Assembly: GCA_012033095.1 (NCBI GenBank)
Contig: JAAUPO010000009.1
Coordinates: forward strand, 1-15,638
DNA length: 15,638 nucleotides
Source: Synechococcaceae cyanobacterium RL_1_2
Lineage (GTDB): Bacteria; Cyanobacteriota; Cyanobacteriia; Cyanobacteriales; JAAUPO01
Reading direction: 5' to 3'
A model generated the notes under the pieces. The model saw only the letters and a list, made by a program, of their open reading frames with translations. It did not search any database and had not been told where the DNA came from. Below, piece after piece: positions 1-15,638 of this stretch. The first letter of the stretch is position 1. Each line of letters begins with the position of its first letter. A program made the translations under genes and the position numbers.

Positions 1-946
1 GGCTCTAGTGGGCGATTACGGCCTGTTGCCATGTGGTCTCTAACCCGATCGCGATGGTGGTGGGATTTACTGCGGCCGGTGTCACCAAGATTAGTGCTGG
101 CCTCTTGAAAAGTATGGGATCGATGACGCGGTGGACGCGATCGCGTTTCATGGGGGAGCTGGCCTATGGGGAACCTTAGCGGTGGGTTTATTTGGTCACA
201 TTGATCATCGTTACGAACAGATCGGGATTCAATTGTTGGGCATTGGGGTAGCCTTAGTCTGGGGCATGGGTTTATCTTGGTTACTGTTAGCCAATCTCAA
301 TCGATTTTATCCTTTGCGAGTCTCCCCCGAAGCCGAAGCGATCGGCCTCAACATTTCCGAACATGGAGCTAAAACCGCTACCTATGAATTGTTTGAAGTC
401 ATGGATCGCCAAGCCCGTCACCAGGATCTTACCCTACGGGTACCCGTGGAACCCTTCACCGAAATTGGCCACATTGCCACCCGTTATAATCAAGTGATTG
501 ATGCCCTAGAACGGAACCATCGGGAAAACCAAGAATCCTTAGAAGAACTCTACGCCATCACCGCCACCGCCGTTGCCGTCGTGGAAAATCAAAAATTTGA
601 TCCCGATAGTTTTGCTATGTTTAGCGATCGTGGTGACGAGTTAGGGATTTTAGCTTCTAGCTTACAGCAAATTCTCTACACCATTAACGAGCAACAGAAC
701 CAAATTACATCCCTCAAAACAACACAACAAGAACATTGGCGAATGATACTCAGCGAAATTTTTCACTATCGCTTTGATCAACCCCCCTCGTTTTATCAAG
801 CCCAACTCCAACAACTGGCCCTAACGGATCCGGCAATCACCATTCACCACGCATTCACGATCGCTGACTTTGAACAATTCAAAACCATTTACCTGAAACC
901 CCCAGAGCCAGATTCCTTGCCCTCCGACGAGACAAAAAATAACTAA
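1..946 (+). CDS. Ammonium transporter (Amt) C-terminal part fused to a HAMP-like signalling segment; 5' partial, two frame breaks
   Basis: The gene starts before the window. Amt family membrane proteins conduct ammonium; this is the last part of the channel. From about 15 to 110 one frame reads an Amt helix (HVVSNPIAMVVGFTA), and from about 111 another reads the Amt signature IDDAVDAIAFHGGAGLWG and a last membrane helix (IQLLGIGVALVWGMG). The frame changes near 10-12 (one extra G) and 108-111 (one A missing); the two cancel. After the channel comes a cytoplasmic tail of about 190 residues with a HAMP-like segment (DLTLRVPVEPFTEIGHIATR, then RYNQVIDALE) and a further helical part with a second similar pattern (DRGDELGILASSLQQI). 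Fusions of Amt to signalling domains are known; here no GGDEF or kinase domain follows the tail before the stop. The likely role is ammonium-responsive signalling, which is inference. The open frame at 131 is not a true start. Confidence 0.8.
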
Positions 947-990
947 ATCCTATAATCAGATTAATTTTTCATTTAAATTCAATGAAATTA

Positions 991-1107
991 GGGAGTGTCA
1001 TCAATTAGCATTAAAACGTTGATCCTGAGCCAGGTTCAGAAAGTATAGTTTTAAACTGAAATCCTTAGCTAAGAAGAGTTTCAGGTTTAAATGATGACAG
1101 GCCCTAG
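991..1107. repeat. Dispersed repeat R, copy 1
   Basis: This stretch of about 117 bp matches 4754-4869 over its whole length with few differences (shared core GTTTTAAACTGAAATCCTTA). Its ends are inverted (TGTCATCAATT and AATGATGACA). Inside, TTTAAACTGAAA at 1050-1061 can pair with TTTCAGGTTTAAA at 1079-1091. It lies 44 bp after the stop of the Amt fusion gene. It looks like a small non-autonomous mobile or structured element with no coding potential. Confidence 0.75.
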
Positions 1108-1130
1108 ATTAAATCAAATGAAATCAAATT

Positions 1131-1262
1131 AAGAGGCTGTTTATAAAGCCAATTAAATTTGCATTTTGCCCCCTAAATCCCTCAAATTTGTAAGACTTTT
1201 AATGATTTTTCAAAAATTTCTCCCCCAGAATGGGGGGCAGGGGGGCTTTATAAATCAACTCT
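1131..1262 (-). mobile_element. MITE-like inverted-repeat element, copy A
   Basis: About 132 bp bounded by imperfect inverted repeats (AAGAGGCTGTTTATAAAGCC at 1131-1150, with its counterpart at 1244-1262). The reverse complement holds the same C-rich then G-rich core (CCCCCCATTCTGGGGGA) as the elements at 4891 and 14178, so this copy lies in the opposite orientation to them. It has no open frame. The size, the terminal inverted repeats and the multiple copies point to a non-autonomous transposable element. Confidence 0.65.
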
Positions 1263-1348
1263 CAATTAATCTAAACTAATCTAAATCAAATTATTTTCTT
1301 AGTTTGAGAAACCGTAGATCCCACGGAACTTGCTCCCAATCTTGAATG

Positions 1349-2550
1349 CTACATCTCATCATTAAAATTATTCAAATATCTTTCAATTAACGTAATTAAC
1401 TCCGACTCTCCGAAAGGTTTAGTTAAATAGTCCGTTGCCCCTAACATCCGAGCTTTAATGCGATCGAGGTATGCTGATTTCCCCGTCAACATCACAATGG
1501 GAGTTTGTTTAAACTGGGTAGAATTCCTTAACATTGAACACAATTCATAACCATCTAAACCCGGCATCGCAATATCACACAAAATCAAATCCGGATTAAT
1601 TGCAAAAATAGTACTTAACGCCTTCATCGGATCATTGAGAATCGTCATCTCATAGGGCTGAGACTCTAACATCAATTCCACCGCTTTCCCGATGGTTAAA
1701 TCATCATCAATACACACCACATGGGGCTTAATGACCGTTGGCTCCTCTAACTCTTGATGATCCCCATTTTCTCCACTCAACCGATCCTGGGGATAATCAT
1801 TGATCGCAATCCACCCTTTTTGCACGTAGGGATAGATGGCCTTCGCGATCGTAAACATATCCCGATTTAGATACCGGCCTAACTGACGCAGGGTGGTATT
1901 CCCATTCGCCCAACGATACAGATTTTGATAGGTAGCATCCGGTAAAGCTTTTTTTAACTCAGTATTATCACTAATCGTAAAACATTGAGAAGGAAACTTG
2001 ATGTGGGGATGGAATTTTTTCCAATGCTGAACCTGCTTCAGGGCCTTAGCCGTACTCGTGCTAATTTCGAGGGTAGTTAAGCGAGGGGCAAAAGCATTAC
2101 CCATCTGAAAAATAAAGGTACCTTGATGGAGGTTTAACAAATCAAATAAAGTCTCTTCCACCATGCCCTGCAATATCACCTTAGCCTGCTTTGGCTCTAG
2201 GGTATGATTAGCCAGTAAAGACCACATATGGGCATATTCCGCCGTCGTCCATTTATCTAACTCCTCTTCCTGCTGATGATTAACTTCCAAAGCATCCTGG
2301 AGTTTATAACGATACAAATAATCATTCAGACGAGAAACATTAGATTGGCTATTGTCCGCAGCATATACGATTTGGCCACTGATAAAAAAAACAAACCAAA
2401 TGGAGGGTTCAGAACGTTTTTTTTAGATAAAGGTCTTTGGTGGTAGTTATAGGGACAAGAAGAATCGATAAAAAGTTGGCCTGTCTTTTGGCCTACTTCA
2501 ATAAGTTGCAAGATGCTATTGATATCTATTTCACTTAAGGTTCCCTGCAT
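1349..2550 (-). CDS. PatA-family response regulator (PATAN domain plus receiver), frame broken in an A8 run
   Basis: Two frames make one gene. The 5' frame starts at 2550 with MQGTLSEIDINSILQLIEVG, the typical start of a PATAN (DUF4388) domain. The second frame gives WFVFFISGQIVYAADN, RLNDYLYRYKLQDALE and everything after. They join if the A8 run (2417-2424, T on the plus strand) had nine A; the repaired protein is 400 residues, close to PatA of Anabaena. The C-terminal receiver has the acidic cluster (VVCIDDD), the phospho-acceptor Asp in ILCDIAMPGLDG, Thr in VMLTGKS and Lys in LTKPFGE, so it should be phosphorylatable. Relatives act in pilus-based motility, phototaxis or heterocyst patterning. 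It is transcribed divergently from hmpF, which favours motility. The 322-residue open frame alone lacks the start of the PATAN domain. Confidence 0.85.
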
Positions 2551-2996
2551 CCTTTTTTCCGATTACTCCTGGTTGTTGCAATTACCCACAGCAAAGATTA
2601 GGTAAAGTTAAAGCTGAATCCTTGAGACCATAACCTTAGTTTGTCCATGGTCTAAGTTTAAATCAACATTTGCCATTGATATACAAGAAAAAATAAATTT
2701 TTATAGAGACACCAAAATTTCACTATATTTTTCAACAGATCAAGCTGCCCTAGATCAGGAATAGACTGCTACAATTGCATAGATATTTTCTCCATAGTTT
2801 TTGTCATTTAAGATTTAGATTACGATGACTTATCATAGGTGTAATTTACATGGTTATTATATCTATGGGGTTAGGGTCACTATCCTCCATTCCCCATAAA
2901 CGAGCTGGACAAGGCCCTTGTGCCGTTAGGTTCCATGACATCATTAACATTCAAGGACAGATTTCTGAGATTTAATCAACAAAGGGGATAATCGGC
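2551..2996. other. Divergent intergenic region between the PatA-like gene and hmpF
   Basis: 446 bp of AT-rich DNA that must hold the promoters of both divergent genes. I see no open frame of note, no copy of the repeats found elsewhere in the window and no clear -35/-10 pair. A purine-rich AAAGGGG about 10 bases before 2997 could be the hmpF ribosome binding site. Confidence 0.5.
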
Positions 2997-4730
2997 GTGC
3001 TATATCTGGCAGAAGTAAAAAAACAAAAAGGATTTATGGGAACTACCTGTTCCCTAAAACTGCTTGCTTGTCAGCGAAACGATAAAAGTTGGAGCGCCGT
3101 ATCTGGAGAAGAGATTAATGCGGATCAAGCTAGTGCTTTAGCCGATGGAGCCCTAGTGATGGTTAACCTTGGAAATAATCAACAACTTCAAGATACTCCC
3201 ACCCCCGCAACGGATAGAATTGTCAGGATTCTTCAGGATTTTTCCCGCTTAAAAGAAAAAGCCGATCAACAGGAAGAGGAAATTCAGCAGTGGCAGGAAT
3301 CCCTTACCATCCAAGGGGAACAACTTAACGAGCGGGAACAGGAAATCCAAGCAAAATTAGCAGAGCTAGAGGAACTACAGGACCAAAAAACAACCCTAGA
3401 AGAAGAAGCCGATCGCATTAAGGGTATTAAAGAAGAAGCCGATAAAATCAAAGCAGAATTTGATCAAAAAAATCAAGAGCTAGAGGGGGCATGGCAGCAG
3501 CTCAAAGCGGAACAGCTCAAAATGGAGGAGAAGGTACAAGAACTTTCTCAAAATTCATCCTTAGATGATGCCCAATATGAGCAATTAAAATCTGGTTTAC
3601 AATCCCTTGCCCAATATTTAATTAATCCAGAGAGTCTTCAGCAGTATTTTTTGGATATTAATAATGGGATGAATCGATATCAGGAGCTATTAACCCAGTA
3701 TTGGCAAGAACTACAAACGGAAAGGGAAAGCATTAAAGAACGTCATCATAAATTAGAAGAAAACAAAACTAACCTAAGCAAAGAGCACCAACAATTGGAG
3801 CAAATTTCTTCCACGTTAGAAGAAGCGAAAAACCAATTGAAGACCCAACAGTTATTACTGATCTCGAAACATGAATCTTTAGAGTTAATCAACGACCATT
3901 TGCAAAATAAGCAGGATTTGAAGGATCAGCTAACCGCCATGGCCGCAGGTTCTGCCTTTGATAATGATCTTAGTAAAAAGGTCAATATGGATTCGTTGGA
4001 AATCATGCCATTGATGGAACTGGAAACGATGGTGGAAAATTTAAGAACTGACCTTGAACGATTGGTGGGTTTTGTCAATGATCAAGAAGAGGAGCTTAAT
4101 TATCAAAAACAAGCGGTAGATGAAATTAAGGTAAAACTGGAAACCGCCAATGAGTACGATCGCATCAACCTCGAAGCAGAATTATCCCAGGAGCAGGAAA
4201 GCTATACGATGCTAGATGACTCCATTGAAGGTTCCCGACGTAATTTGTTGGAAAGGGAAGAAGTTTTTAAGGTGCATTTAGGGGTATTAAACCGTAGAAA
4301 AGGCATTGTTAATATGGATACTAGTGGGGATCAAATTGATTTTTCCCCCCTAATTGCTGCGGTGGACGAGCAGTACGAGCAGTTGTGTGAGGAACAGCGT
4401 AAGTTTGAGCAGGAAATTGAACAGCTCAATGACAGTATTCATCAAGTGGAGAATGTGATTAGCCAACACCAAGATGAGTATCACAAAAGGCAACAAAAAT
4501 GGCAGGAGGTGCAGAGTCAATGGGAACAGGAACAGACCGCGATTAGTCAATTACAGTTGAAAATTACGGTGTATGAAGCGATTTTGCAGCCGTTACAGGA
4601 CAAAATGGATGGCTTAAGAACCCAGGTGGATCACCTTGCCGGTCTGGAGCAGGAGGCAAATTCTCACCAAGCAGACTTTAAGCAGATTATGGGTTCTTTA
4701 GAGTCTTTATTAAATCAGCTGAAGGGATAG
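2997..4730 (+). CDS. hmpF: Pilus motility taxis protein HmpF
   Basis: 577 residues, intact. The start is GTG, with AAGGGG about 10 bases upstream, and the protein opens MLYLAEVKKQKG, which I recognise as the HmpF start. A globular N-terminal domain of about 75 residues (KLLACQRNDKSWSAVSGEE, then DGALVMVNLGNNQQ) is followed by an almost continuous coiled coil to the end, with heptad-like runs rich in Glu, Gln, Lys and Leu and few prolines. HmpF is a conserved cyanobacterial protein needed for type IV pilus-driven gliding in filamentous strains. No signal peptide or membrane helix is visible, so it should be cytoplasmic. The divergent PatA-type regulator supports a shared motility role. Repeat R begins 23 bp after its stop. 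Confidence 0.87.
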   Translation: MLYLAEVKKQKGFMGTTCSLKLLACQRNDKSWSAVSGEEINADQASALADGALVMVNLGNNQQLQDTPTPATDRIVRILQDFSRLKEKADQQEEEIQQWQESLTIQGEQLNEREQEIQAKLAELEELQDQKTTLEEEADRIKGIKEEADKIKAEFDQKNQELEGAWQQLKAEQLKMEEKVQELSQNSSLDDAQYEQLKSGLQSLAQYLINPESLQQYFLDINNGMNRYQELLTQYWQELQTERESIKERHHKLEENKTNLSKEHQQLEQISSTLEEAKNQLKTQQLLLISKHESLELINDHLQNKQDLKDQLTAMAAGSAFDNDLSKKVNMDSLEIMPLMELETMVENLRTDLERLVGFVNDQEEELNYQKQAVDEIKVKLETANEYDRINLEAELSQEQESYTMLDDSIEGSRRNLLEREEVFKVHLGVLNRRKGIVNMDTSGDQIDFSPLIAAVDEQYEQLCEEQRKFEQEIEQLNDSIHQVENVISQHQDEYHKRQQKWQEVQSQWEQEQTAISQLQLKITVYEAILQPLQDKMDGLRTQVDHLAGLEQEANSHQADFKQIMGSLESLLNQLKG

Positions 4731-4753
4731 TGGAAAATCAAGGAAATTAATTA

Positions 4754-4869
4754 GGACGTGTCATCCATTGGGATTAAAACGTTGATGCTGAGTCAGGTTC
4801 AGAAAATTTAGTTTTAAACTGAAATCCTTAGCTAAGAAGAGTTTCCGGTTTAATGATGAGAGCCTCTAG
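4754..4869. repeat. Dispersed repeat R, copy 2
   Basis: Second copy of the repeat at 991-1107, in the same orientation and nearly collinear, starting at GACGTGTCATCC and ending near ATGATGAGAGCC. The inner inverted repeat is kept (TTTAAACTGAAA and TTTCCGGTTTAA). Both copies sit shortly downstream of a plus-strand stop codon (23 and 44 bp) and both are followed by a MITE-like element. Confidence 0.75.
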
Positions 4870-4890
4870 TTGACGTTTAAATATTTGACT

Positions 4891-5025
4891 AAGAATGTGT
4901 TTGAAAAGCCCCCCTTGCCCCCCATTCTGGGGGAAATCACCTAGATTTTTAAGCAATGAAGTTCGCCAAATTGGGGGATTTAGGAGGCGACTCCACAACA
5001 TTTGATACTTTTCAAACACGTTCTA
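4891..5025 (+). mobile_element. MITE-like inverted-repeat element, copy B
   Basis: 135 bp with 18-bp terminal inverted repeats: AAGAATGTGTTTGAAAAG at 4891-4908 pairs with CTTTTCAAACACGTTCTA at 5008-5025 (16 of 18). The core reads CCCCCATTCTGGGGGAAAT near the left end and ATTGGGGGATTTAGG near the right end. It is highly similar to copy C at 14178-14311. The 63-codon frame that crosses it on the minus strand is a by-product. Confidence 0.75.
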
Positions 5026-5118
5026 AGAACTTTAGTATTTAAACGTATTTATATTTAGCAATTTAGCAAACTTATTTAAGTTGTAGCTTGGATCGATCGC
5101 GATGGGTAACGATGGGGT

Positions 5119-5178
5119 TAAGCTTAGATTGTTAGGGAATAGTGGCTATAACCGTGAATAGAATACCTAACAAGCTTA
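5119..5178. repeat. Imperfect hairpin upstream of the kinase gene
   Basis: TAAGCTT-agatt-GTTAGG at 5119-5136 pairs with CCTAACAAGCTTA at 5166-5178, leaving a 5-base bulge and a 29-base loop. An A-rich tract follows. It lies about 230 bp before the kinase start. It could be a structured leader or the remnant of a small element; no function is shown. Confidence 0.4.
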
Positions 5179-5409
5179 AATAAAGAATAAAAAAATAATA
5201 ATAGAATAAATTATAACAACCGTCATCAAGGACATTGTGCCCTGCTCGCCCCAGGAGTCAAGGTTTTGGTTAATGTGATTGTTAAAATTAGATAATTTGA
5301 GCCATTAGTGGAGGTGGGCAATCAAATAGACCAGGAATATCAATGGTGAACAGTCCCCATCCTGAATATTTTTAGAGTTTTTAGATCGAGTTAAGTTGTT
5401 CTTTGTACC
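5179..5409. other. Intergenic region before the kinase/WD40 pair
   Basis: With the preceding 93 bp this completes a gene-free stretch after MITE copy B. It is AT-rich, with an A/T tract near 5179-5215. I see no open frame, tRNA or convincing promoter. It presumably holds the promoter of the kinase gene at 5410, which has no strong Shine-Dalgarno sequence. Confidence 0.4.
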
Positions 5410-6315
5410 ATGGCCTATTGTTTTAACCTGAAATGTCCGGCTCCTGATGTGGCAGGGAAGGGGAATTTTTGTATTCATTGTGGGGCTAGTTTGCGCCTAG
5501 ACGATCGCTACGAAGCCCTTAGATCCCTAAAGAGCTATGCCAATGGTGGAACCTTTGTTTGTCACGATCGCCAACAACGTCAATGTGTCATTAAAAAAAT
5601 TTCTTTACAAAGGCCAGGACAACCCAATAAATCCTGGGAGCAAGAAATTAAAGCAATTAAAACCATCAGTACCCATCCTCAAATTCCCGATCTATGGGAG
5701 CATTTTTTTGATTTAGATCATCATTATCTTTACCTGGTGCAGGAATTTATTGAAGGAAAATCCATAGATCAGGAGCTTTATGACGGGCCACAAGTGGAAG
5801 CATTATTGTTAGAAATATTACCTTTATTGCATTTTATCCATAGCCATGGGGTGACCCATCGGGATCTTAATCCCCAAAATTTATTACGTAGTTCGCGATC
5901 GGATCATCGATTATTTTTAGTCGATTTGAGTACAGCTAAGGTGAGTGCCAAGACTTCCTTAGGAAGGGCTGGAACCACTATTGGTTCAGCGGCCTATACT
6001 GCGCCAGAACAGTTATATGGCCAATCCTGTCCGGCCAGTGATCTGTATAGCTTAGGTTTAATTACCATTCATTTACTTACCCAGATGAATCCCTTGGATT
6101 TATTGAGTGGGGCTGATGGAATTAGTGCGTGGCAGGATTATTTACCAGAGCCCATATCTCCCCTATTAGTCCAGGTGATCAATGGCATGGTGGCTGAAAG
6201 TTTGACCGATCGCTACAGTCAGGCTTTAACTATTATTAAACTGTTAAATCCCAATTTTCAAGAAGGGGATAGTTTTAATTTTGAACAGGGGGATGCCCCT
6301 CTCGGCGGTGATTAA
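5410..6315 (+). CDS. Four-Cys-prefix Ser/Thr protein kinase with an atypical active site
   Basis: 301 residues. An N-terminal zinc ribbon has Cys4, Cys9, Cys21 and Cys24, followed by ASLRLDDRYEAL, the usual lead-in of cyanobacterial four-Cys kinases. The kinase domain fills residues about 34-285: Lys62 in CVIKKI, Glu79 as a likely partner, HRDLNPQNL at 150-158, VDLSTAK at 171-177 and APEQ further on. Three key sites deviate from the norm. The glycine loop is reduced to SYANGG, the Lys of HRDxKPxN is Asn154, and DFG is DLS. Activity may be reduced or the protein may be a pseudokinase; that is inference. No membrane helix is seen. The last 35 bp overlap the WD40 gene. In related cyanobacterial proteins kinase and WD40 can be one chain, so a shift in the G5 run near 6288-6292 could have split a single gene. 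Confidence 0.85.
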   Translation: MAYCFNLKCPAPDVAGKGNFCIHCGASLRLDDRYEALRSLKSYANGGTFVCHDRQQRQCVIKKISLQRPGQPNKSWEQEIKAIKTISTHPQIPDLWEHFFDLDHHYLYLVQEFIEGKSIDQELYDGPQVEALLLEILPLLHFIHSHGVTHRDLNPQNLLRSSRSDHRLFLVDLSTAKVSAKTSLGRAGTTIGSAAYTAPEQLYGQSCPASDLYSLGLITIHLLTQMNPLDLLSGADGISAWQDYLPEPISPLLVQVINGMVAESLTDRYSQALTIIKLLNPNFQEGDSFNFEQGDAPLGGD

Positions 6316-7216
6316 AAATTTAAAACCGAGTTGGAAGCAGCGCAAACAATGGCAAGCCCATCGCAACACTATTACTAGTTTAAAGTTTAGTCGGGATGGA
6401 ACCAAACTTTTAAGTACTAGCGCGGATCAACTAGTTAAGGTGTGGAATTGGGACAATACTACGGCCTGGCAGCTTGAAGGTCATCGGAGTGTGGTCAGCC
6501 AGGGGCTGTTTGGGCAACAACAAATTATTAGTGCTAGTTGGGATTATGACATTAATGTGTGGTCTGAGGATCGCCAGGAATTAACCTCGGAATTGACTGG
6601 CCATAGTGGTTGGATTTTGGCTGTGGCTTTATCGGCCGATGGTTCTAGGTTAGTTAGTGGTGGAAGCGATCGTCAGCTTAAATTATGGGATCTAGCCCAG
6701 AAAAGGGAATTAGTTACCTTGCAAGGCCATGGACACCCGATCCAAGCTATAGCTTTTGGCCATCAAGAAAACCAATTAGACCTATTGATTAGTGGTGATC
6801 AATCTGGGCTGATCAAAATATGGCATAGCGAAACCTATGCTTTGATTGCCACCCTGACGGAACTACATCATCAAGCCATTACGGCTATTCGGTGCCATCC
6901 CCATAATCCTTGGGCTATTACCACTAGTGCTGATGCCACGGTTAAATTATGGCAGATCCCCACCGGCAAACTCCTCAAAACTTTATCTGGCCATATTAAT
7001 GGGGTGCTTGATGGGGATTTATGCGATCGCGGCCAATTATTGGCCACCATTGGTGATGACCATAAAATTAATCTTTGGTATTTACCCCAAGGAGAAATTA
7101 TGGAATCGATTTTTCTCCAGGATTTTGCTCTTACCGCGATCGCATTGCACCCCCAGGGTACCAAATTCGCGATCGGTGGCAAAAATGGCCAGATACAGCT
7201 TTGGGATTATCATTAA
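6281..7216 (+). CDS. Seven-repeat WD40 beta-propeller protein, overlapping the kinase gene
   Basis: About 311 residues from TTG at 6281, or 307 from ATG at 6293; both starts lie inside the kinase gene. The protein is almost wholly seven WD40 units, enough for one closed propeller: units ending VKVWNW, INVWSE, LKLWDL, IKIWHS, VKLWQI, INLWYL and IQLWDY, several with the GH dipeptide (EGHRS, TGHSG, SGHIN). No signal peptide, membrane helix or enzyme domain is present. WD40 propellers usually act as protein-binding platforms. The overlap implies translational coupling, so its likely partner is the kinase, as substrate receptor or regulator. The frame is open upstream only to about 6248, so a fusion with the kinase would need one frameshift in that short stretch. 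HIP1 sites lie inside it at 7023 and 7136. Confidence 0.87.
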   Translation: MNRGMPLSAVIKNLKPSWKQRKQWQAHRNTITSLKFSRDGTKLLSTSADQLVKVWNWDNTTAWQLEGHRSVVSQGLFGQQQIISASWDYDINVWSEDRQELTSELTGHSGWILAVALSADGSRLVSGGSDRQLKLWDLAQKRELVTLQGHGHPIQAIAFGHQENQLDLLISGDQSGLIKIWHSETYALIATLTELHHQAITAIRCHPHNPWAITTSADATVKLWQIPTGKLLKTLSGHINGVLDGDLCDRGQLLATIGDDHKINLWYLPQGEIMESIFLQDFALTAIALHPQGTKFAIGGKNGQIQLWDYH

Positions 7217-7253
7217 CACCAAATCTGTTTTATTGAATAAAGACTATAGCTTT

Positions 7254-8360
7254 CTAATTTAAACTTTTTGGATCAAGGGCATCCCTGAGGCCATCCCCCA
7301 ATAAATTAAACGATAGCACTGTGGTAATGATGAGGAGGGCGGGGGGCCAAATTAACCAGGGTTGTAGCACAAGAATCGAGGCATTAGTACCTAACGAGAG
7401 TAAATTACCCCAGCTAGGATCCGGTTGTTGAATGCCCAGACCAATCAAACTTAGTACCGATTCGGCCACAATAAATCCTGGGACGGCAAGGGTTGCTGAG
7501 ATGACCACATAACTAGAAGTTTGGGGGAGAATATGGCGCACAATGATGTAGAAAGCGTTGGCCCCCATGGCTTGGGCTGCTTGCACAAAACTCTAATTTT
7601 TTAATCGATAATACTTGGCCACGGATCACCCTCGCTAACCCTGACCAACTAATCAAAGACGTGATCAAGACAATTAATAAGAAGCGTTCCGCACTACTCA
7701 AGCCAGAGGGGAGTACCGCTGCTAGGGCCACTAATAAATAAATCCCTGGAATACTCATTAATACTTCCAAGAACCGCATCAAAATCGTGTCAGCAATGCC
7801 TCCAAAATAACCGGCAATGCCCCCACCAACATTCCGATCGGGAAGGAAATCATAATACCAATCAAACCAATGGACAAACTAATGCGACTACCGATGACTA
7901 AACGACTAAACTGATCCCGGCCCTGTTCATCGGTGCCGAGGAGATGGATGCGGGCAATGCCATCGGTGCCAAATAAATGGCGATCGGAGGGAATACCGGG
8001 AAAAATATCCACTACGGCAAAACTAGGGGGCAGAGGCAAACTCACCGCAAATAATCGATATTCTTCCCCTTTAACGAATAGGCCTAATTTGGAAGGTTGG
8101 CTGCGATCTTCCTTGAGTTCCCTCTCCCCTGTTTCAATGATAGTCGGGCCTTGGGTCGTGGGATAAACCACTAAACCGGGCTGATTTTGCCCACCTCGAT
8201 AAATGTTAGTGGGGGGTAGAAGGGAACTATCCACCTCGGAGGAGTAGGCGGAATAGGGGGCAATAAAATCTGCACCGATCGCGATCGTATAAAGCAGAAT
8301 CAAAAAAGTTGCGCCCCAACGAGCTAGAGAATTTCTTTTAAGTTTTTGCCACCAATTCAT
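7254..8360 (-). CDS. ABC transporter permease, DppC/OppC family (peptide/nickel type), two frame breaks
   Basis: Inner-membrane permease of a peptide- or nickel-type ABC importer. I start it at ATG 8360 (MNWWQKLKRNSLARWGATF) because GGAG lies about 11 bases upstream; a TTG 18 bases earlier is the alternative. Helix 1 (ATFLILLYTIAIGADFIAPY) is followed by a long periplasmic insert of about 110 residues, then FGTD and LLGTDEQGRDQFSRL, typical of DppC. The frame then breaks at C5 7820-7824 (one base short of reading GGIAGYFGG) and at A4 7587-7590 (one base too many before the EAA-loop VQAAQAMGANAFYIIVRHIL). The shifts cancel, and the repaired protein has 368 residues ending LLGDGLRDALDPKSLN. No partner permease, ATPase or binding protein lies beside it, so the substrate is open. 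It converges with the WD40 gene, 37 bp apart. Confidence 0.85.
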
Positions 8361-8659
8361 GAAGGATCTATTCTCCAATGGGGGATAAACCCACTAATTA
8401 ACATTAATTAAAATTAAAATACTAAAAATACTAAAGGTTGCTAAATTACTACTGCTGACTTAAACCGAACCGATGGAATAGCAGCAAGAGATCTGTGCTG
8501 GTAATGTTTAACCGTCATGATTTGATGGATATTCCTATCTTCTAACCCTTATGCTAAGCAGTTTTCGTAAAAAATCAACAATTCATTTCACCTCAGTTAG
8601 AGTACTAGTTCAATTAGTTCCATGGGAAGCCCTCAAATTAGATCCATGGCTATCTGGGA
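8361..8659. other. Intergenic region between the permease and the kinase-TPR gene
   Basis: About 300 bp, AT-rich. It lies downstream of the kinase-TPR gene and upstream of the permease (both minus strand). I see no open frame, repeat copy or convincing terminator hairpin. The permease promoter should be here. Confidence 0.4.
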
Positions 8660-10459
8660 CTAAATCAGTAAATTAACCCCATCAAGCCAATCATTAACTT
8701 CATCGGGATAATGATTGTAATTTGAAGTTAATTTATCACGGCAGTTGTTCCAATGTTCGGTAGCATAATCTTGATCTCCTTGGGCTGTTTTGACCTGGGC
8801 TAACAAACAATAGGTATCGGGAAAATCAGGATAAATGGCGATCGCTTGTTCTAAATTAATATGGGCCTGATCGAAATCTCTTTGCTGTAGATATAACCAC
8901 CCCCAATTTTTATACACATTAGCGACAATTTCGCGATCGTAACCGCTTACGGTTGAGACAGATAGGGGTAAATAATGATTAGCAGTAACTAACCGCTCCC
9001 TAGCACTAGCTAGATCGCCCTGGAGCAGATCTAATCTAGCTAACAAGTTATGTTTATAAGCTAATAACTCCGTACCCATGGCTGTATAAATAACCCTAGC
9101 TTGGTTGAAATCACCTTGGGAATCATAGATTCGACCTAGGGCCATCAACGTTAAATCATCCTCTGGGTTTAACTTATGGGCTAAGGATAATAAGGGTTGG
9201 GAGAGTTCGATGTTGCCTCGATTAAATTGATGAATGCCCTGATTACTGAAAAATATCGCGATCGAAGAAGCTTGCCACATCACAATACTACTGGTCACCG
9301 TAATCCCCACCAGGGATTTAAGGCCATAGGTCTTACCCCAATGTTTAATGTTGCTAGTTATCTTGCCAGTTATTTTGCTAGTAATGGTGCCAGCAAATTT
9401 TACGATGTTATTGCGACGGTTGATGACGGTAACGGGGATTTCTAGGGGATAATAGCTATCCTGCATTACTTTAGGAGGCGTAACTAAACCCCCAGGTTCC
9501 CCCGTCAATAAATCCAACGTTTGGCCCTGGGCTAATTTAATTACTTCTTCCCAGGATTGGTGACGATCCCTCACCTTCGGGGCCATCAATTCATCGAGCA
9601 GCGTTCCTAACTCCTCAGAAACATGGGGCACCAGCGATCGCCAATCCGTATCAGCCTCGTTTAACTCAGAAGGATGAATCCCCACCAACCCATAGGCCAT
9701 CGTCTTCCCCAAGGCATAAATATCAGAACAGGGTACGCCCCGACCTTGGCTTTGTTCTGGAGCGGTATAACCATGGGAAATAACCTGGGTTAGGTCACGC
9801 TTAGCGACTTTCGTCCAAAAAGTTGGGCTATCCGTAACCCGGACAGTACCAAAATCAATCAGGGCTAATTCCAGATTGGGCATGACCATGATGTTACTTG
9901 GTTTAATATCCCGGTGGACATATCCCAACCGATGGAATTTAGCGAGTAAGGTTGCTAGCTGAATTAACCAATTTTTAACCAAATTTTCCTCAGGGGGATC
10001 ATGGTGTTTACGCCAGACTTCTAGGTTTTGCCCCTCAATTTTGTCCATTACCAGACAATGGTAACGATGTTTGTAGTTTTTAAATTGAAGCTGAAAATAA
10101 CTATCCTTAGCGGCTACCTTGGGAATATGGGTAAAGCCTTTTTGGGTTAATAGCCTTAAAACCACATACTCTTGGTTAAATAAATCCACATATTTAGGAG
10201 TAGCGTTAGACTTTAAAACCTTAATGATTTTAGCTTTCGTTCCGCCAGGGCCAGGTTCTTCGCTGTCGATCGCTTCATACAGATTAGAAGGAAAATCCCC
10301 TCCCGTTCTCAAGGCCTTAATTACACGGTAACGTTGCTTAATCAGGAGGGAGCTGCCGCAACCTTGACAACAAAACTGATCCCCCTCCTGTTCCGGGGAT
10401 GGGCAATAGGGATTGATACAAAGGGAGATGTTCAACGGGTTTGATTGGGGGTCATTCAT
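8660..10459 (-). CDS. Four-Cys-prefix Ser/Thr kinase with membrane segment and C-terminal TPR repeats
   Basis: 599 residues, intact. Zinc-ribbon Cys are at 14, 19, 30/31 and 34. The kinase domain (about 44-315) has Lys80 in AKIIKVL, VHRDIKPSN at 181-189, IDFGTVR at 201-207 and APEQ at 233-236, so unlike the kinase at 5410 it looks catalytically complete. One hydrophobic segment (about 382-404, SLVGITVTSSIVMWQ onward) is preceded by a basic, Thr-rich linker. The part after it (about 407-570) has helical TPR-like units, for example LMALGRIYDSQGDFNQARVI and WGWLYLQQRDFDQAHINLEQ. The topology suggests a cytoplasmic kinase and an outward TPR sensor, which is inference. Its ATG overlaps the stop of the NB-ARC gene by 8 bp (ATGAATGA), so the two are translationally coupled and very likely act together. 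Confidence 0.88.
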   Translation of the reverse strand: MNDPQSNPLNISLCINPYCPSPEQEGDQFCCQGCGSSLLIKQRYRVIKALRTGGDFPSNLYEAIDSEEPGPGGTKAKIIKVLKSNATPKYVDLFNQEYVVLRLLTQKGFTHIPKVAAKDSYFQLQFKNYKHRYHCLVMDKIEGQNLEVWRKHHDPPEENLVKNWLIQLATLLAKFHRLGYVHRDIKPSNIMVMPNLELALIDFGTVRVTDSPTFWTKVAKRDLTQVISHGYTAPEQSQGRGVPCSDIYALGKTMAYGLVGIHPSELNEADTDWRSLVPHVSEELGTLLDELMAPKVRDRHQSWEEVIKLAQGQTLDLLTGEPGGLVTPPKVMQDSYYPLEIPVTVINRRNNIVKFAGTITSKITGKITSNIKHWGKTYGLKSLVGITVTSSIVMWQASSIAIFFSNQGIHQFNRGNIELSQPLLSLAHKLNPEDDLTLMALGRIYDSQGDFNQARVIYTAMGTELLAYKHNLLARLDLLQGDLASARERLVTANHYLPLSVSTVSGYDREIVANVYKNWGWLYLQQRDFDQAHINLEQAIAIYPDFPDTYCLLAQVKTAQGDQDYATEHWNNCRDKLTSNYNHYPDEVNDWLDGVNLLI

Positions 10460-12101
10460 CTTTGATGCAATGGATTAAGCCCTGAATATTATCTAGTGTA
10501 TAACCCAATTCAAACGTTGTTAACTCCTGTAACTTATCCTTATCCGTAAGGGTTTTTAAGTTCTTTTTCACTGAGCGATCGCTATGACAGTAGTTAGCTA
10601 GTTTTAGAGTAATTGGTTGTAACAGATTAATTACTTGGGAATCCCTAATCTCGGACTGGGGGGACAATAAACGAAACTTCCTGAGCACATCGAAGCTACT
10701 CACTTCATTGGTATTGAACGCTTCAATAATTTCATCGGTTACTTCTGCTACGATGATTTTCGTTAAATATCTTAGTAACGTGTTGCCCATCTCCAATTGT
10801 TCATGTTCCCCGTGTTGAATACCATAGATCAGGGAACGGCGACGGAGGGACGAGATCGCCTTCACAAAATCACCGGAACTGCCATAGCTTAACTGATGTT
10901 CCTGGAGTACTTCCGACAGGGTCGCGAACCTTTCCACCGTCAAACAATACATAATTTCTGATTCTAAAGGACTCAGTTTATCCAATTGCTCTTGAATCAT
11001 CTGTTCTAAACTATAGCCCAACACAATGGTTAACTGGTCTAAAAAGCGGACAACTTCGCCACCAAAGGTTTGTTTAATATCCTCAGCTACTAACTTTAAA
11101 GCCCAGGGATGGCCTTGATAAATATCAATTAACTTAGGCCATTGTTTAGGATCCTTGAGCCCATAGTTTTGTAACAGGCCGATCGATTCATCTAGGTTTA
11201 ATCCAGGTAATTTGATCTGATGAACGCGATCGTCGGTATTGGCGTTAATCGTACAATCATTTAATTCCTCTCTGCTAGTGATAATGACACAACTTTGATG
11301 CTCTTCTTTCACTAAACAGCGAAGTAAACGTTGATAATTTTTATAATCCTCGCAGTATTGGCCATTTAAAACGTGGTCTTCAAACAAACTATCCCAATTA
11401 TCTAAGACCAACAAACATTTGTGGTTGCGTAAAAAAGCCATCAACTTATTTACGGGATCTGTGGAGGTTTTGTCCGTAATAAATTCAAAATTATTAATAA
11501 ACGTGTCTAATGGCTCTGGATTATCTAATTTACGCCAAATAAAGTAAGGAAAATCATTGATCACTAAAGTTTGTAACCGATTGGCTAGGGACGTTTTCCC
11601 AATACCCCCCATGCCAAAGATCCCCAATACCGAGCATTTGCCTTCTAAGATCAGGGATTGATATTGATTAATGAGTTCCTGGCGACCATAAAAGCGAGTA
11701 GCCCTAGGTAATCCGATCGCATCTTTTTGACTAGTACGAAAGTTGTCCTTTAAGGAGTAATTTGGGGCTAGCCATTCAATTAAATCTTCCCACCGACTTA
11801 AAGTATTACGCTCGCAGTTGGTTAAAACTTCCCCATAACGATAAATAGTTTTAGAAAGGTTAGCCCTTAAGCCACTGAGGCTAATGTAACAAATCTGGGC
11901 AATATCCTTGGGGGAATTCCCCATTAAAATTCCCCTTAGGTAAACCTTTTCTCGACTAGTCAAACCAGTATTAGTTTTACGTTTAAGAAACTGACAACGG
12001 GCTTGACCTAGATCTTCGTACAACTTTGCTAAATTCCAAGTGTTAGCAGCCTCTTGAAATAAATCATCGTCATTAGGTACCAAACCATTATCATTGCCCA
12101 T
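10452..12101 (-). CDS. STAND/NB-ARC ATPase with N-terminal helix-turn-helix-like domain
   Basis: 549 residues, intact. Residues about 45-95 (LTSREKVYLRGILMGNSPKD, then SLSGLRANLSKTIYRYGEVL) look like the helix-turn-helix-like N-terminal domain of cyanobacterial vWA-MoxR-associated (vMAP) and NB-ARC proteins; I name this from pattern, not a search. A short lead FYGRQELINQY precedes the P-loop GMGGIGKTSL (163-172), Walker B LLVLDNWDSL (230-239), the sensor-like IITSREEL (273-280) and GHPWALKLVA (330-339), all typical of NB-ARC. A helical region follows and the protein ends at LGYTLDNIQGLIHCIKDE. As I recall them, relatives continue after this point into WD40 repeats, absent here. STAND ATPases are nucleotide-driven switches in signalling and immunity. 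Downstream and overlapping is the kinase-TPR gene, its probable effector or partner. Two palindromes lie upstream. Confidence 0.85.
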   Translation of the reverse strand: MGNDNGLVPNDDDLFQEAANTWNLAKLYEDLGQARCQFLKRKTNTGLTSREKVYLRGILMGNSPKDIAQICYISLSGLRANLSKTIYRYGEVLTNCERNTLSRWEDLIEWLAPNYSLKDNFRTSQKDAIGLPRATRFYGRQELINQYQSLILEGKCSVLGIFGMGGIGKTSLANRLQTLVINDFPYFIWRKLDNPEPLDTFINNFEFITDKTSTDPVNKLMAFLRNHKCLLVLDNWDSLFEDHVLNGQYCEDYKNYQRLLRCLVKEEHQSCVIITSREELNDCTINANTDDRVHQIKLPGLNLDESIGLLQNYGLKDPKQWPKLIDIYQGHPWALKLVAEDIKQTFGGEVVRFLDQLTIVLGYSLEQMIQEQLDKLSPLESEIMYCLTVERFATLSEVLQEHQLSYGSSGDFVKAISSLRRRSLIYGIQHGEHEQLEMGNTLLRYLTKIIVAEVTDEIIEAFNTNEVSSFDVLRKFRLLSPQSEIRDSQVINLLQPITLKLANYCHSDRSVKKNLKTLTDKDKLQELTTFELGYTLDNIQGLIHCIKDE

Positions 12102-12190
12102 AGGAAATAGCTGCTATTAACAATCATTTGATCAAAATCATACAAATAAAATGCAGCCTAAATCCCTCGGATTTGAAAATCACAACCAAA

Positions 12191-12207
12191 ATACTAACTC
12201 TTAGTAT
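12191..12207. promoter_or_regulatory. 17-bp palindrome, candidate operator 1 of the NB-ARC operon
   Basis: ATACTAA-ctc-TTAGTAT: perfect 7-bp arms, 3-bp spacer, 90 bp upstream of the NB-ARC start. On the minus strand it contains TATACT, which could serve as a -10 box, so a bound regulator would block it. No good -35 box is seen at the right distance. Regulatory function is inferred from symmetry and position only. Confidence 0.35.
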
Positions 12208-12283
12208 AGAAACATTATTCTATATTTAAGTTCAGGAAAAAGACGAGTATCAAAATAAATAATTATGTTTTTTGTTTAATGGA

Positions 12284-12300
12284 ACTAAATATAATTTAGT
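12284..12300. promoter_or_regulatory. 17-bp palindrome, candidate operator 2 of the NB-ARC operon
   Basis: ACTAAAT-ata-ATTTAGT: again perfect 7-bp arms and a 3-bp spacer, 183 bp upstream of the NB-ARC start. It shares ACTAA with the palindrome at 12191 but shifted by two bases. AT-rich palindromes occur by chance, so confidence is low. Confidence 0.3.
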
Positions 12301-12500
12301 GGAAGAGAGTTAAACATTGAGAACTGATTACAACTTACAACACGAAGATTTTGGGCTTGTATCCTTGATTGATTAACATCGAAAAATATCGCGATCACGG
12401 CCCCCATGGCTTCGCATTAATGATCCCCAAACCCACAGGAGATAAGGTTTTAAGTTTTGCTGATTGTGCTAATTATTTTAGCTATATTTTGGTTATGGAC

Positions 12501-12530
12501 AAAAAAACTCCTCAGCAAAGCCAAAGGAGT
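12501..12530 (-). terminator. Rho-independent terminator, minus strand
   Basis: Read on the minus strand, ACTCCT and AGGAGT form a 6-bp stem around a 12-base loop, directly followed by a run of T (the A run 12501-12507 on the plus strand). It lies 20 bp after the stop of the small minus-strand gene at 12550, as expected for that gene. Pairing and T tract are both seen directly. Confidence 0.65.
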
Positions 12531-12549
12531 AAATTTAATTAGGGTGCAT

Positions 12550-12680
12550 CTACCAATAACTTGTTCTAGTTCCTTCGCAAAATTCAGGATAAATTTGGGG
12601 TAGTGCTAAAGCTTTAAGGATATTTAGACCCAGGATAATTGATTATCAAGGGGTTTGATCTTCCTGATCCTTACTTGCAT
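12550..12680 (-). CDS. Small unrecognised protein of about 43 residues, one frame break
   Basis: From ATG at 12680 one frame reads MQVRIRKIKPLDNQLSWV and stops. One base over, the next frame reads on as NILKALALPQIYPEFCEGTR, then TSYW, and stops at 12550, 20 bp before a terminator. If one T is missing near 12628-12632 (GTCTAAAT for GTCTTAAAT) the two join as SWVLNILKAL, giving 43 residues. The support is indirect: sensible codon-level continuity, a terminator in the right place, and the same type of single-base loss as in neighbouring genes. The protein is basic at the N-terminus with an aromatic C-terminus. I do not recognise the family. It could instead be a remnant of a longer gene or a non-coding RNA. 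Confidence 0.4.
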
Positions 12681-12832
12681 AGGATTAATATAGGACTACT
12701 TGATAAAAATAAATCCCTAAGCCTAAAACCCTTTAATCATCTCTATTCTAGAGTGTTAATCTTTATAAATTGCCTATAAGGGTTATTGCCAGTAACTCCT
12801 CATCAGGAATGGCGGATCAAGGGGATTAATCT

Positions 12833-12897
12833 AAAAAATGCTCCAAGCTTAGGGCCTTTAGGAGAGAAATTGGTAACTGTCGCACCTCTCCAGCATT
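12833..12897 (-). terminator. Probable nested-stem terminator after hisA
   Basis: On the minus strand AATGCT (12897-12892) pairs with AGCATT (12842-12837), which runs into T's. Inside, GGAGAG (12891-12886) pairs with CTCTCC (12866-12861) around a 19-base loop. It begins 3 bp after the hisA stop. The asymmetric 18-base bulge makes it less certain than a simple hairpin. Confidence 0.4.
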
Positions 12898-12899
12898 GT

Positions 12900-13668
12900 C
12901 TAAGCGATCGTTGAATTATCAATATTGACATCTTGCCACCGGCCATTGCCGATCGCTTGAATTGCTTCCTTCAGGTTAACTGCTCCCGTATAGAGGGCTT
13001 TCCCTACAATTACCCCCGTTACTCCCATGGGTTCGAGGGCCAGTAAACTAAGTAAATCCGTTAAGGAACTCACCCCCCCCTGATGCAATTATCGGTTGAT
13101 GGGCTTTGCTCGCTAAATTCCGGAGGGCTTCTAAATTTGGGCCTGCGAGGGTGCCATCTCGACTAATATCCGTATAAATAATAGCCGCCACCCCAGATAA
13201 GTTATCCGTGGTGACTAGTTCTTCTGCTAACACCTCCGAGGTTTCAAGCCAGCCCCTAGTGGCTACTTTGCCATCCCTCGCATCAATACCCACCAAAATC
13301 CGATCGGGATACATGGTTGTTAACTCCTGTACCAACGCTGGATTTTCTACTGCGACAGTACCTAAAATACAACGATCCACCCCCAGCTCCAATAATTGTT
13401 GTACTTTGCTGCGATCGCGAATTCCGCCCCCTACCTGTACCGGAATCGATAGGGCCCGCACAATTTTTTCAATGATCGGGAGGTTTACTGGTTCTCCGGT
13501 TTTAGCTCCATCGAGGTCAACTAAATGCAACCTACTGGCCCCTTGGCTTTCCCAATCCTTGGCCATGGCTACTGGATCTTCATGGAAAACCTGGGACTGG
13601 TCATAGTCCCCTTGATATAAACGGACACATTTTTGATCCAGCAGATCGATCGCGGGGATTACTTCCAT
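12900..13668 (-). CDS. hisA: HisA, phosphoribosylformimino-AICAR-phosphate isomerase, frame broken in a G8 run
   Basis: Cytoplasmic TIM-barrel enzyme (EC 5.3.1.16) for the fourth step of histidine synthesis, the opening of the ProFAR ribose ring (Amadori rearrangement). I start at 13668 ([20 protein letters not shown]), where the family begins, not 33 bases upstream. Seen in order: catalytic-type Asp8 in PAIDLLD, VHLV-like [52 protein letters not shown] with the second catalytic Asp, and [20 protein letters not shown]. The frame then breaks at C8 13073-13080 (G8 in the gene). With seven G the sequence reads [17 protein letters not shown] and goes on to the end as [20 protein letters not shown]. 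The repaired length is 255 residues, normal for HisA. As hisA is a housekeeping gene, a sequence error is more likely than loss. No other his gene is adjacent. Confidence 0.93.
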
Positions 13669-13926
13669 AGAGATAAAACCTAACTTGAGTTTTGACTTCA
13701 ATTTTTTAATTTACAAATTAGGATTTTACTGGACTAATTCCTTAAAGTCGGATGCCATAGTCAATTTTTGTAAATTTTTCCTTATAGTTTGCCCACAATC
13801 TTATGCAAGAAAGGCTTATATACCTATCCATGGGGCAACTAAGAATATTTACTTATTAACCCCCATGGTTGATTGTCTTGGAAATTATCAATAGGATAGA
13901 TTAACAAATAAATCACTACTGATTGA
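13669..13926. other. Upstream region of hisA
   Basis: About 260 bp that should contain the hisA promoter (minus strand). A 69-codon plus-strand frame crosses it from 13685 but starts near the hisA start and shows no recognisable motif. With the two inverted-repeat elements that follow, it fills the 700-bp gap between hisA and the gene at 14372. Confidence 0.4.
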
Positions 13927-14019
13927 TATAGCAGTCCTAACTAAGTCATAACAGGGAGATCCTTACTAGACTTGGCTTTTAATTTACTCAATTGCCACAA
14001 GTTATTTAGGATTGCTATA
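13927..14019. mobile_element. 93-bp MITE-like element with 18-bp inverted ends
   Basis: TATAGCAGTCCTAACTAA at 13927-13944 pairs with TTATTTAGGATTGCTATA at 14002-14019 (16 of 18). The inside has no open frame. Ends of the type TATAGCAATCCTAAAT are, from memory, common in cyanobacterial miniature elements. It is unrelated to the elements at 1131, 4891 and 14178. Confidence 0.55.
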
Positions 14020-14177
14020 ACTCCCCTAAGGTTTTAACTTTGTTTTAGCTTGGGGACAAATATCCATAGGCAACGAAGTAATAAGAACTGGTGCATTATT
14101 TGTACGTTAACCGAGGGTTAGCGTTTGATTTCTTTTTTATCAATTAATCAATTAATATACTGAATTTTATCGGGTGT

Positions 14178-14311
14178 AAAAGGCTATTTGAAAAGCCCCC
14201 CTTGCCTCCCATTCTGGGGGAAATCACATAGATTTTAACCAATGAAGTCCACAAAATTGAGGGATTTAGGGAGCGAATCAACAACATTTGATACTTTTCA
14301 AACACGTTCTA
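14178..14311 (+). mobile_element. MITE-like inverted-repeat element, copy C
   Basis: 134 bp. AAAAGGCTATTTGAAAAG at 14178-14195 and CTTTTCAAACACGTTCTA at 14294-14311 form the ends. The inside matches copy B closely (CCCATTCTGGGGGAAATCAC, then ATTTGATACTTTTC). It has the same orientation as copy B. Its right end lies 60 bp before the start of the MshEN-repeat gene, so it may influence that gene's transcription. Confidence 0.75.
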
Positions 14312-14371
14312 AGAACTCCAATGTTTAATTTGATCAATCTCATCGCAACTACTTTCTAGCAATGTAAAACC

Positions 14372-15367
14372 ATGTACAGTAACCCCAGCAAACTTTCCTT
14401 AAGAAAATTTTATCTTGGTGAGCTGTTGCTTTTAGCCGGAATTATTACCCCTGCCCAATTATCGGTGGTTTTAGAAGATCAGGAATTTACGTCCTACCAA
14501 ATGAGGGTAGGAGAGATCCTACTTAGTCGAAATTGGATTACAGAGCAAACCTTGAAATTTTTTTTAAAGGACATTTTTGAAATTCAAAAAACAAAACATT
14601 TACCGATAGGGAAGTGTCTTAAATATGCTGGATTAATGACCGATCGCCAAATTCAAAATGTCCTTCAAGAACAAAGTAAATGTTGGATGAAATTTGGAGA
14701 AGTAGCAGTTTTGCATAATTATTTGCGACAAGAAACCCTAGATTTTTTTGAAGAGTACTTTTTTCAGAAAAAGAAACTAATTTCCCTTTGGGGACCATGT
14801 TACAACAGGCTGGATTTATTTCAGGGGAGGAACTGGAGAAGTGTTTACAATATCAAGCTAAATATTCTGATTTTCGGATTGGGGAAATTTTAAGCCGCTT
14901 TAATTTTGTTAAGCAAGATACGGTGGATTTTTTGTTGAAGATTTTCCCGTGATTAAAGAATCAAAAAATATGCGTTTAGGGGCTTGTTTAAAACAGGCTG
15001 GGATTTTAACCGATGAACAAATAGAAAATTTATTAATTCAGCAAAATTATCATTGGACTAAATTTGGTCGCGTGGCGGTTTCCCTTGGTTATATCAAAAA
15101 GGAAACTTTAGAATTTTTAAAACCTATTTAATGCCCCATGATCAAACTTGGGCTGATTGCCGTATTATCAATAGCCCGAACAAGGTATTAAACTTATACT
15201 ATTCGCAAAATGCCTCTACGGATAGTTTTGTGCTTTCAAAAACCCTAGATCATGATCCTTCAGAAGAAACCCCTGAACCTAAAGCCCCTATTGCCTCAAT
15301 GCCCCTATTGCCATCGGATTACCCAGTAGAGCTGAAATCTGAACTACTGGCTGAGCGGGGGACATAG
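14372..15367 (+). CDS. Tandem MshEN-like (GspE N-terminal type) repeat protein, possible c-di-GMP receptor; three frame breaks
   Basis: Repaired length about 332 residues. The protein is four tandem modules of about 60 residues, each with two copies of the pattern xLGxxLxxxGxxxxxxLxxxLxxQ: GELLLLAGIITPAQL/RVGEILLSRNWITEQTL, IGKCLKYAGLMTDRQIQ/KFGEVAVLHNYLRQETL, LGTMLQQAGFISGEELE/RIGEILSRFNFVKQDTV and RLGACLKQAGILTDEQIE/KFGRVAVSLGYIKKETL. This pattern is that of MshEN domains, which bind c-di-GMP in some pilus ATPases; here no ATPase follows. Modules 2 and 4 resemble each other most. A Pro/Glu-rich, probably disordered tail of about 78 residues closes the protein. Frames break near 14787-14793, at T4 14942-14945 and at A4 15119-15122, each one base short. 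The three losses together restore the starting frame. A role in pilus or surface behaviour is inferred from the domain type and the window's motility genes. Confidence 0.75.
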
Positions 15368-15638
15368 TTTGAGCCTGGGGGGATTTATAGTCCATTGAAT
15401 TTAGTATGGGATTTTTACTCCTTGTCCTAGTAGGATTTCAGCTCTATTTATTTCCCATAATTATTCCAAGAGACTATATGTTGGGACTTGAGCGATCGCA
15501 AAACCAGATTTTTATCTAGGCCGTGTCATGAAGTAATACTAAATCAATCAATCAATTAATTGGAGCTACAGATAAAATATCCCCCTAAACCTTTAACAAG
15601 GCTGAACAAGAAAGAAATACGATACGAGTAATAATTAA
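15368..15638. other. Downstream intergenic sequence at the window end
   Basis: About 270 bp with one HIP1 site (15491) and no supported gene. CCGTGTCATGAAG near 15522 recalls the left end of repeat R (GTGTCATC), but the match does not continue. Confidence 0.35.

Follow-up and report, generated by a model that had tools for sequence, protein, structure and literature searches.

In Streptomyces, the DNA-binding STAND regulator AfsR is a substrate of the Ser/Thr kinase AfsK, the last residue of its Walker A motif (T337) being one of the sites, and this phosphorylation counteracts the release by ATP (PMC10936776). In cyanobacteria, the cbSTKII kinases combine a kinase domain with TPR, WD40, CHASE2, ANF or SH3b domains, and most cyanobacterial kinases with extra domains were not clustered by those domains in a 2007 survey (PMC2176072). 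Here we analyse two overlapping genes, a STAND/NB-ARC gene, whose product belongs to the AP-ATPase switches known from plant and animal immune receptors, and a four-Cys Ser/Thr kinase gene, in a 15,638-nucleotide stretch of Synechococcaceae cyanobacterium RL_1_2 (contig JAAUPO010000009.1, positions 1 to 15,638), referred to as the window. As with AfsK and AfsR, a Ser/Thr kinase and an NB-ARC regulator, here a putatively DNA-binding one, are encoded near each other. However, AfsR has a SARP domain and a TPR part of its own, and two genes separate afsK from afsR (PMC10936776), whereas the window genes overlap, the STAND protein has a LuxR-like helix-turn-helix (HTH) and no sensor, and the kinase tails vary among relatives. 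The arrangement of a sensor-free switch gene directly before the gene of a kinase with an exchangeable sensor-like tail was found in many cyanobacteria. Relative to the cbSTKII passages of the 2007 survey, which list the domains of single proteins, the STAND neighbour as a shared feature is new (PMC2176072). For the original prediction, made from the sequence of the window, this two-gene layout was not known as a described system, and no description was found in the passages of the open-licence papers searched.

The elements of the pair are the following, in window coordinates:

10452..12101, minus strand: STAND/NB-ARC gene, 549 residues, ATG start, open to the stop codon; the protein has a helical N-terminus with a LuxR/GerE-like HTH (about residues 45-95), an NB-ARC domain (about residues 134-345) and a winged-helix and helical C-terminal part whose end is the sensor boundary
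8660..10459, minus strand: four-Cys Ser/Thr kinase gene, 599 residues, ATG start, open to the stop codon; kinase domain, one probable membrane segment (residues 386-404) and C-terminal TPRs
10452..10459, minus strand: 8-base overlap of the two genes, shared bases ATGAATGA
10476..10505, minus strand: GYxxxNxxxL motif of the STAND protein, residues 533-542
11586..11615, minus strand: Walker A loop GMGGIGKTSL of the STAND protein, residues 163-172

On the minus strand the NB-ARC switch gene comes first and the kinase gene second, and both are probably expressed on one transcript. That the two genes are intact and overlap by 8 base pairs (bp) was confirmed, neither open reading frame (ORF) being interrupted between its start and stop codons. 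The draft genome to which the window belongs as one contig measures 2.88 Mb (62% complete); in it the gene described here is the sole NB-ARC match and kinase matches number 15. The named relatives come mostly from cyanobacteria.

The first protein was assigned to the STAND/NB-ARC class by its NB-ARC profile match (PF00931, E 2.2e-10, exceeding the Pfam family cut-off), its Walker A and Walker B motifs (GMGGIGKTSL and CLLVLDNW, with ITSR and GHPWAL as further motifs) and an NLR-type fold, and its NB-ARC part matched the AfsR structure 8k60 in a profile comparison (E 1.1e-5). Its Thr170 is the counterpart of the last Walker A residue of AfsR, T337, and this position is Thr in 102 of the 103 aligned proteins. 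No WD40 or TPR sensor was matched by Pfam in this protein, and its last 203 residues gave no such match at E values up to 10. Of the 22 fused NB-ARC-WD40 relatives, 20 have the GYxxxNxxxL motif directly before a linker, pentapeptide-like by eye, that leads into the WD40 part. In the window protein, 7 residues follow this motif before the C-terminal end. The cyanobacterial NB-ARC-WD40 proteins share the NB-ARC domain and the boundary with the window protein (some, such as L113 over query residues 12-545, also align with its N-terminal part), but they carry the WD40 sensor in the same chain and in none of the 22 is a kinase encoded next downstream. Among 78 sensor-free relatives the motif lies 2 to 19 residues before the C-terminal end in 41 (18 of 28 paired with a kinase gene, 23 of 50 unpaired) and is absent from 37, many of which are shorter (about 450 residues). 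A relative with 86% identity (P0002, on a contig of 3,593 bases) ends almost alike, which makes a sequencing artefact an unlikely cause of the C-terminal end of the window protein. The protein is therefore devoid of a sensor from the domain boundary on, which bears out the proposal that it has no WD40 or TPR sensor of its own. A plasmid search for relatives gave only matches below 60% identity, and a related-locus search of genome contigs gave no relative.

The matches restricted to the N-terminal HTH region were GerE and LuxR-type regulators. The GerE HTH was above the cut-off in two relatives (P0085, 1e-7; L163, 3.7e-7), the alignment profile of the region matched the GerE structure 1fse (E 0.0067), and in the window protein itself the match was weak (E 0.003, below the cut-off). 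No SARP domain was found in the window protein, GerE alone being matched in its N-terminal 120 residues at E values up to 10. The HTH-like N-terminus of the original prediction thus resembles LuxR/GerE-type HTHs, weakly so in the window copy, whereas the vMAP label of that prediction was not supported: the NB-ARC protein gave no match to the vMAP domain, and MoxR and vWA of the vMAP systems had no Pfam match in the 12 of the 16 ORFs of the window (15.6 kb) that were scanned. Some relatives bear the precomputed label PF26355, presumably a vMAP-linked HTH; the Pfam copy used did not report it for three such relatives.

In order to survey the neighbourhood of such genes, 80 NB-ARC loci (two of them fused) and 20 fused controls were tallied with mechanical ORFs as gene calls, resulting in 78 sensor-free and 22 fused loci. 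Forty loci were taken by NB-ARC score among the matches listed and 40 further sensor-free ones were picked by hand, so this is a non-random sample, with several loci from one genus. A pair was counted when a kinase was encoded next downstream on the same strand with a gap of -80 to 500 bp. Such a kinase was present at 28 of 78 sensor-free loci and at none of the 22 fused WD40 loci (Fisher p 3e-4), or, by genus, in 19 of 38 versus 0 of 14; dropping two sensor-free loci with less than 1 kb of downstream sequence gave 28 of 76. Between paired genes the gaps measured -17 to 389 bp, 18 of the 28 being no longer than 50 bp, and no kinase was found just upstream of the NB-ARC gene at any of the 100 loci. 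One locus counted as a pair, L074, has its kinase broken into two overlapping frames (L074:3063-4764), whose pieces were searched separately. Homologues of both genes adjoin elsewhere, so the objection raised beforehand, that they might not be neighbours in other genomes, fails.

For the reverse view, five full-length kinase-TPR relatives were collected solely on their kinase score, and four of them have an NB-ARC gene next upstream on the same strand (gaps 15, 63, 162 and 610 bp); in the fifth, the NB-ARC gene lies 5.6 kb away and is convergent. By comparison, only 2 of 40 kinases matched over the kinase domain alone had an NB-ARC gene in that position (p 5e-4), or 3 of 41 counting L123. These 40 were read out of 52 rows, the rest being the window, six read earlier (the five full-length kinases and the paired L123) and five not included; three of the 40 (L218, L219 and L226) have less than 1 kb of upstream sequence. 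The kinase of the window was not among the 120 matches listed in a kinase search.

A batch of 20 loci, L114-L133, partly picked for kinases, was kept outside these counts and entered the trees and some of the tail examples (L123, L132); at L117 (610 bp) and L131 (958 bp) the gap exceeds the 500-bp limit. Eleven rows of the NB-ARC tree (119 rows), the window among them, make up a starred set; each of the nine with known neighbours, again counting the window, is paired, but five of these nine (L115, L116, L119, L120 and L121) come from that batch and had been selected for, or by their resemblance to, loci bearing a kinase. Pairing required 14 changes on this tree compared to 34.9 in shuffles, and 6 compared to 32.4 on a quick kinase tree of 100 rows, where a starred clade of 20, which includes rows of the L114-L133 batch, is entirely STAND-adjacent once the 610- and 958-bp cases are counted. 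Kinases and NB-ARC genes are both many in cyanobacteria (13 to 164 first-look kinase candidates per genome, for 68 listed of 388 genomes) and 50 of the 78 sensor-free genes are without an adjoining kinase, as would be expected of chance neighbours; however, the absence of pairs among the 22 controls, the fixed gene order, the range of gaps and the way in which pairing tracks both gene trees already disfavour this explanation, which we regard as most improbable.

Regarding the unpaired sensor-free genes, another common partner was looked for and rejected: a same-strand ORF of at least 120 residues within 500 bp was present in 16 of these 50, and these ORFs mostly had an unrelated housekeeping look by eye (four were shikimate-kinase-like), one being an NB-ARC gene. 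Two sensor-free NB-ARC genes stand in tandem at L152:136-3069. At ten unpaired loci (L100, L105, L108, L110, L111, L135-L138 and L141), another kinase gene lies convergent at 1.1 to 1.7 kb, with an FHA-like start by eye in those viewed.

In the kinase of the window, Pfam matched Pkinase (E 1e-18) and TPR_2 (3e-12), and all of 52 aligned proteins have the VAIK Lys, HRD, DFG and the catalytic Asn. The four Cys of its prefix (C14, C19, C31 and C34) are conserved in at least 90% of these 52, and the 4-Cys prefix model NF045510 of NCBIfam gave 21.4 bits, below its cut-off of 24; as a simple four-Cys pattern was matched in 22 of 44 kinase frames, not every paired kinase has the four Cys. The window kinase has a marginal membrane segment, with a best 19-residue mean hydropathy of 1.50 at residues 386-404 and none at a threshold of 1.6, although the stretch has a positively charged N-flank and lies within a predicted helix (386-413). 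At that threshold, a segment between kinase domain and tail was found in 16 of 17 paired kinases with a window-like tail, the sole exception being the broken L074, in three of five with a CHASE2 match and in both with a periplasmic-binding match. The TPRs of the window kinase are probably outside the cytoplasm; of the original description, the TPRs stood and the membrane segment before them was found only in marginal form. Structure comparison of the kinase gave matches to its kinase domain and barely tested the TPR part.

The tails of the paired kinases include TPR, WD40, CHASE2 (L075, L134, L146, L154 and L162), Peripla_BP_6 (L087 and L123) and SH3_3 (L132), or none recognised, and a single supported kinase group (97/93) holds TPR, CHASE2, periplasmic-binding, WD40-like and tailless members. 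Since it is a sensor that the STAND protein lacks, and since some paired kinases have a WD40 tail, like the sensor fused to the switch in the sister class, the two proteins could instead form a mutual scaffold, in which the STAND protein is not phosphorylated, the tail binds it and replaces its sensor in trans, and the kinase acts on other targets. The catalytic residues are nevertheless invariant in 52 proteins, and the tail often lies beyond a membrane segment, where a STAND protein in the cytoplasm could not reach it; such a scaffold seems to us quite improbable.

The original proposal of a sensorless nucleotide switch next to a kinase that bears a sensor-like part is supported by the domain matches and by the adjoining homologues, and the NB-ARC protein and its partner kinase probably form one split receptor. 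A STAND switch requires a releasing input; since the STAND input domain is absent and a sensor-tailed kinase is encoded by the overlapping next gene, the kinase is favoured as the input. A scheme with kinase input and STAND-HTH output is also favoured by the AfsK-AfsR precedent, in which the kinase phosphorylates a DNA-binding NB-ARC regulator. The C-terminal tail of the kinase, TPRs in this case, would sense a cue and set the activity of the cytoplasmic kinase domain, which would phosphorylate the product of the adjoining gene, the sensor-free STAND protein, with the NB-ARC domain as the likeliest target. Phosphorylation would set whether the STAND protein binds ATP and assembles, and the assembled protein would be the output, its LuxR-like HTH altering transcription. 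We put this complete scheme forward tentatively, as a serious possibility.

Several observations weigh against this scheme. Phosphorylation of the STAND protein by the kinase is a prediction by analogy, and even in AfsR phosphorylation changed transcription in vitro little (PMC10936776). The HTH match of the window protein is below the cut-off, as stated above, no membrane segment was found in the six WD40-tailed paired kinases at the threshold of 1.6, and 50 of 78 sensor-free loci are without a downstream kinase by the pair rule. In the quick kinase tree, the window kinase lies on a long branch outside the STAND-paired clade. In a careful kinase tree (43 rows, mixture model), whose rows were chosen after the quick tree was known, a branch (97/93) sets off the window kinase together with 15 STAND-adjacent ones, but the nearest rows to the window kinase by path are unpaired kinases. 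On the opposite side of the same branch, 13 other paired kinases group with unpaired ones, so that pairing was gained or lost at least twice.

The main rival of the split receptor has the signal run in the reverse direction, as in a conflict (immunity) module: an invader or another protein would trigger the STAND protein, its oligomer would switch on the kinase as effector, and the tail would place the kinase or set its targets. Two described systems share features with the pair. PD-T4-6, an anti-phage kinase, is a single-gene system, and the Cys-prefixed kinase domain of the window fits its PADLOC models (E 2.2e-78); however, this likeness is unspecific, since the unpaired kinase of the same window fits about equally (3e-73), and it leaves the direction of the signal undecided. 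The EACC2-caspase systems, with variable C-terminal domains, an ECF sigma factor and DUF1822, likewise combine an unvarying enzyme with tails that differ (CHASE2 among them) and are encoded beside a transcription factor gene (PMC8195603), but the window pair consists of a kinase and an NB-ARC protein, and neither caspase nor DUF1822 was matched in the window ORFs scanned. The STAND protein lacks the sensor used by immune STAND proteins, and no PADLOC model matched it. Its HTH-like N-terminus and missing sensor also differ from the Avs-type layout, with an N-terminal enzymatic effector and a C-terminal sensor in one chain. Finally, the neighbours in the window are of ordinary families (hisA, oligopeptide permease, receiver). 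A conflict-system role for the pair is possible, and we consider the reverse direction unlikely.

A link to conflict systems was found in one family of relatives, in which an additional gene close to the pair codes for the same N-terminal domain as that of the NB-ARC protein (L116:3705-4820, L115:1-972, L119:3206-4294, L121:2606-3730 and L084:1044-2156). In the two copies scanned (L115 and L084), the shared domain is followed by TRADD-like_N and DUF1822, DUF1822 being above the cut-off in both and TRADD-like_N above it in L115 and just below it in L084, which suggests a module linked to the conflict-system domains of PMC8195603. No such gene was matched in the window ORFs scanned, which also speaks against the reverse direction. 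A TRADD-like_N domain within the longer NB-ARC relatives L115, L120 and L121 was looked for and not found.

Further genes noticed in the window are:

131-946, plus strand: ammonium transporter gene truncated at the window start, so that the C-terminal part is present, followed by a long additional C-terminal stretch without a Pfam match
1349-2317, minus strand: DUF4388 and receiver domain protein, presumably PatA-like
5410-6315, plus strand: second kinase gene, with a Cys prefix, overlapping the next gene in another frame
6281-7216, plus strand: WD40-repeat gene
7254-8378, minus strand: oligopeptide permease (OppC_N, BPD_transp_1) over three overlapping frames, either a broken gene or sequence errors
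13048-13701, minus strand: hisA frame (His_biosynth, profile positions 1-200 of 228), ending early beside a single-base run (by eye)

As some relatives fuse both in one protein, the kinase and WD40 genes at 5410-7216 are a split pair or, alternatively, the result of a frame break. The early end of hisA beside a single-base run suggests indel errors in the assembly; the NB-ARC and kinase frames are nonetheless open throughout.

The split receptor may stand for a widespread cyanobacterial class of NLR-like receptors, in which a phosphorylation-gated, sensor-free NB-ARC protein would be the transcription switch and the sensor on the kinase would be exchanged like a cartridge, a generalization that we regard as plausible but rather doubtful. 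If true, bacteria would have diversified a receptor by swapping sensors on a partner kinase and not on the NLR-type switch, and certain cyanobacterial Ser/Thr kinases and orphan NB-ARC proteins would gain a partner. The pair would allow one to ask directly whether the sensor of an NLR-type switch can be replaced by a kinase, and its relatives offer natural sensor swaps on one scaffold, whose cues could perhaps be guessed from the tail, as with CHASE2 or periplasmic-binding domains.

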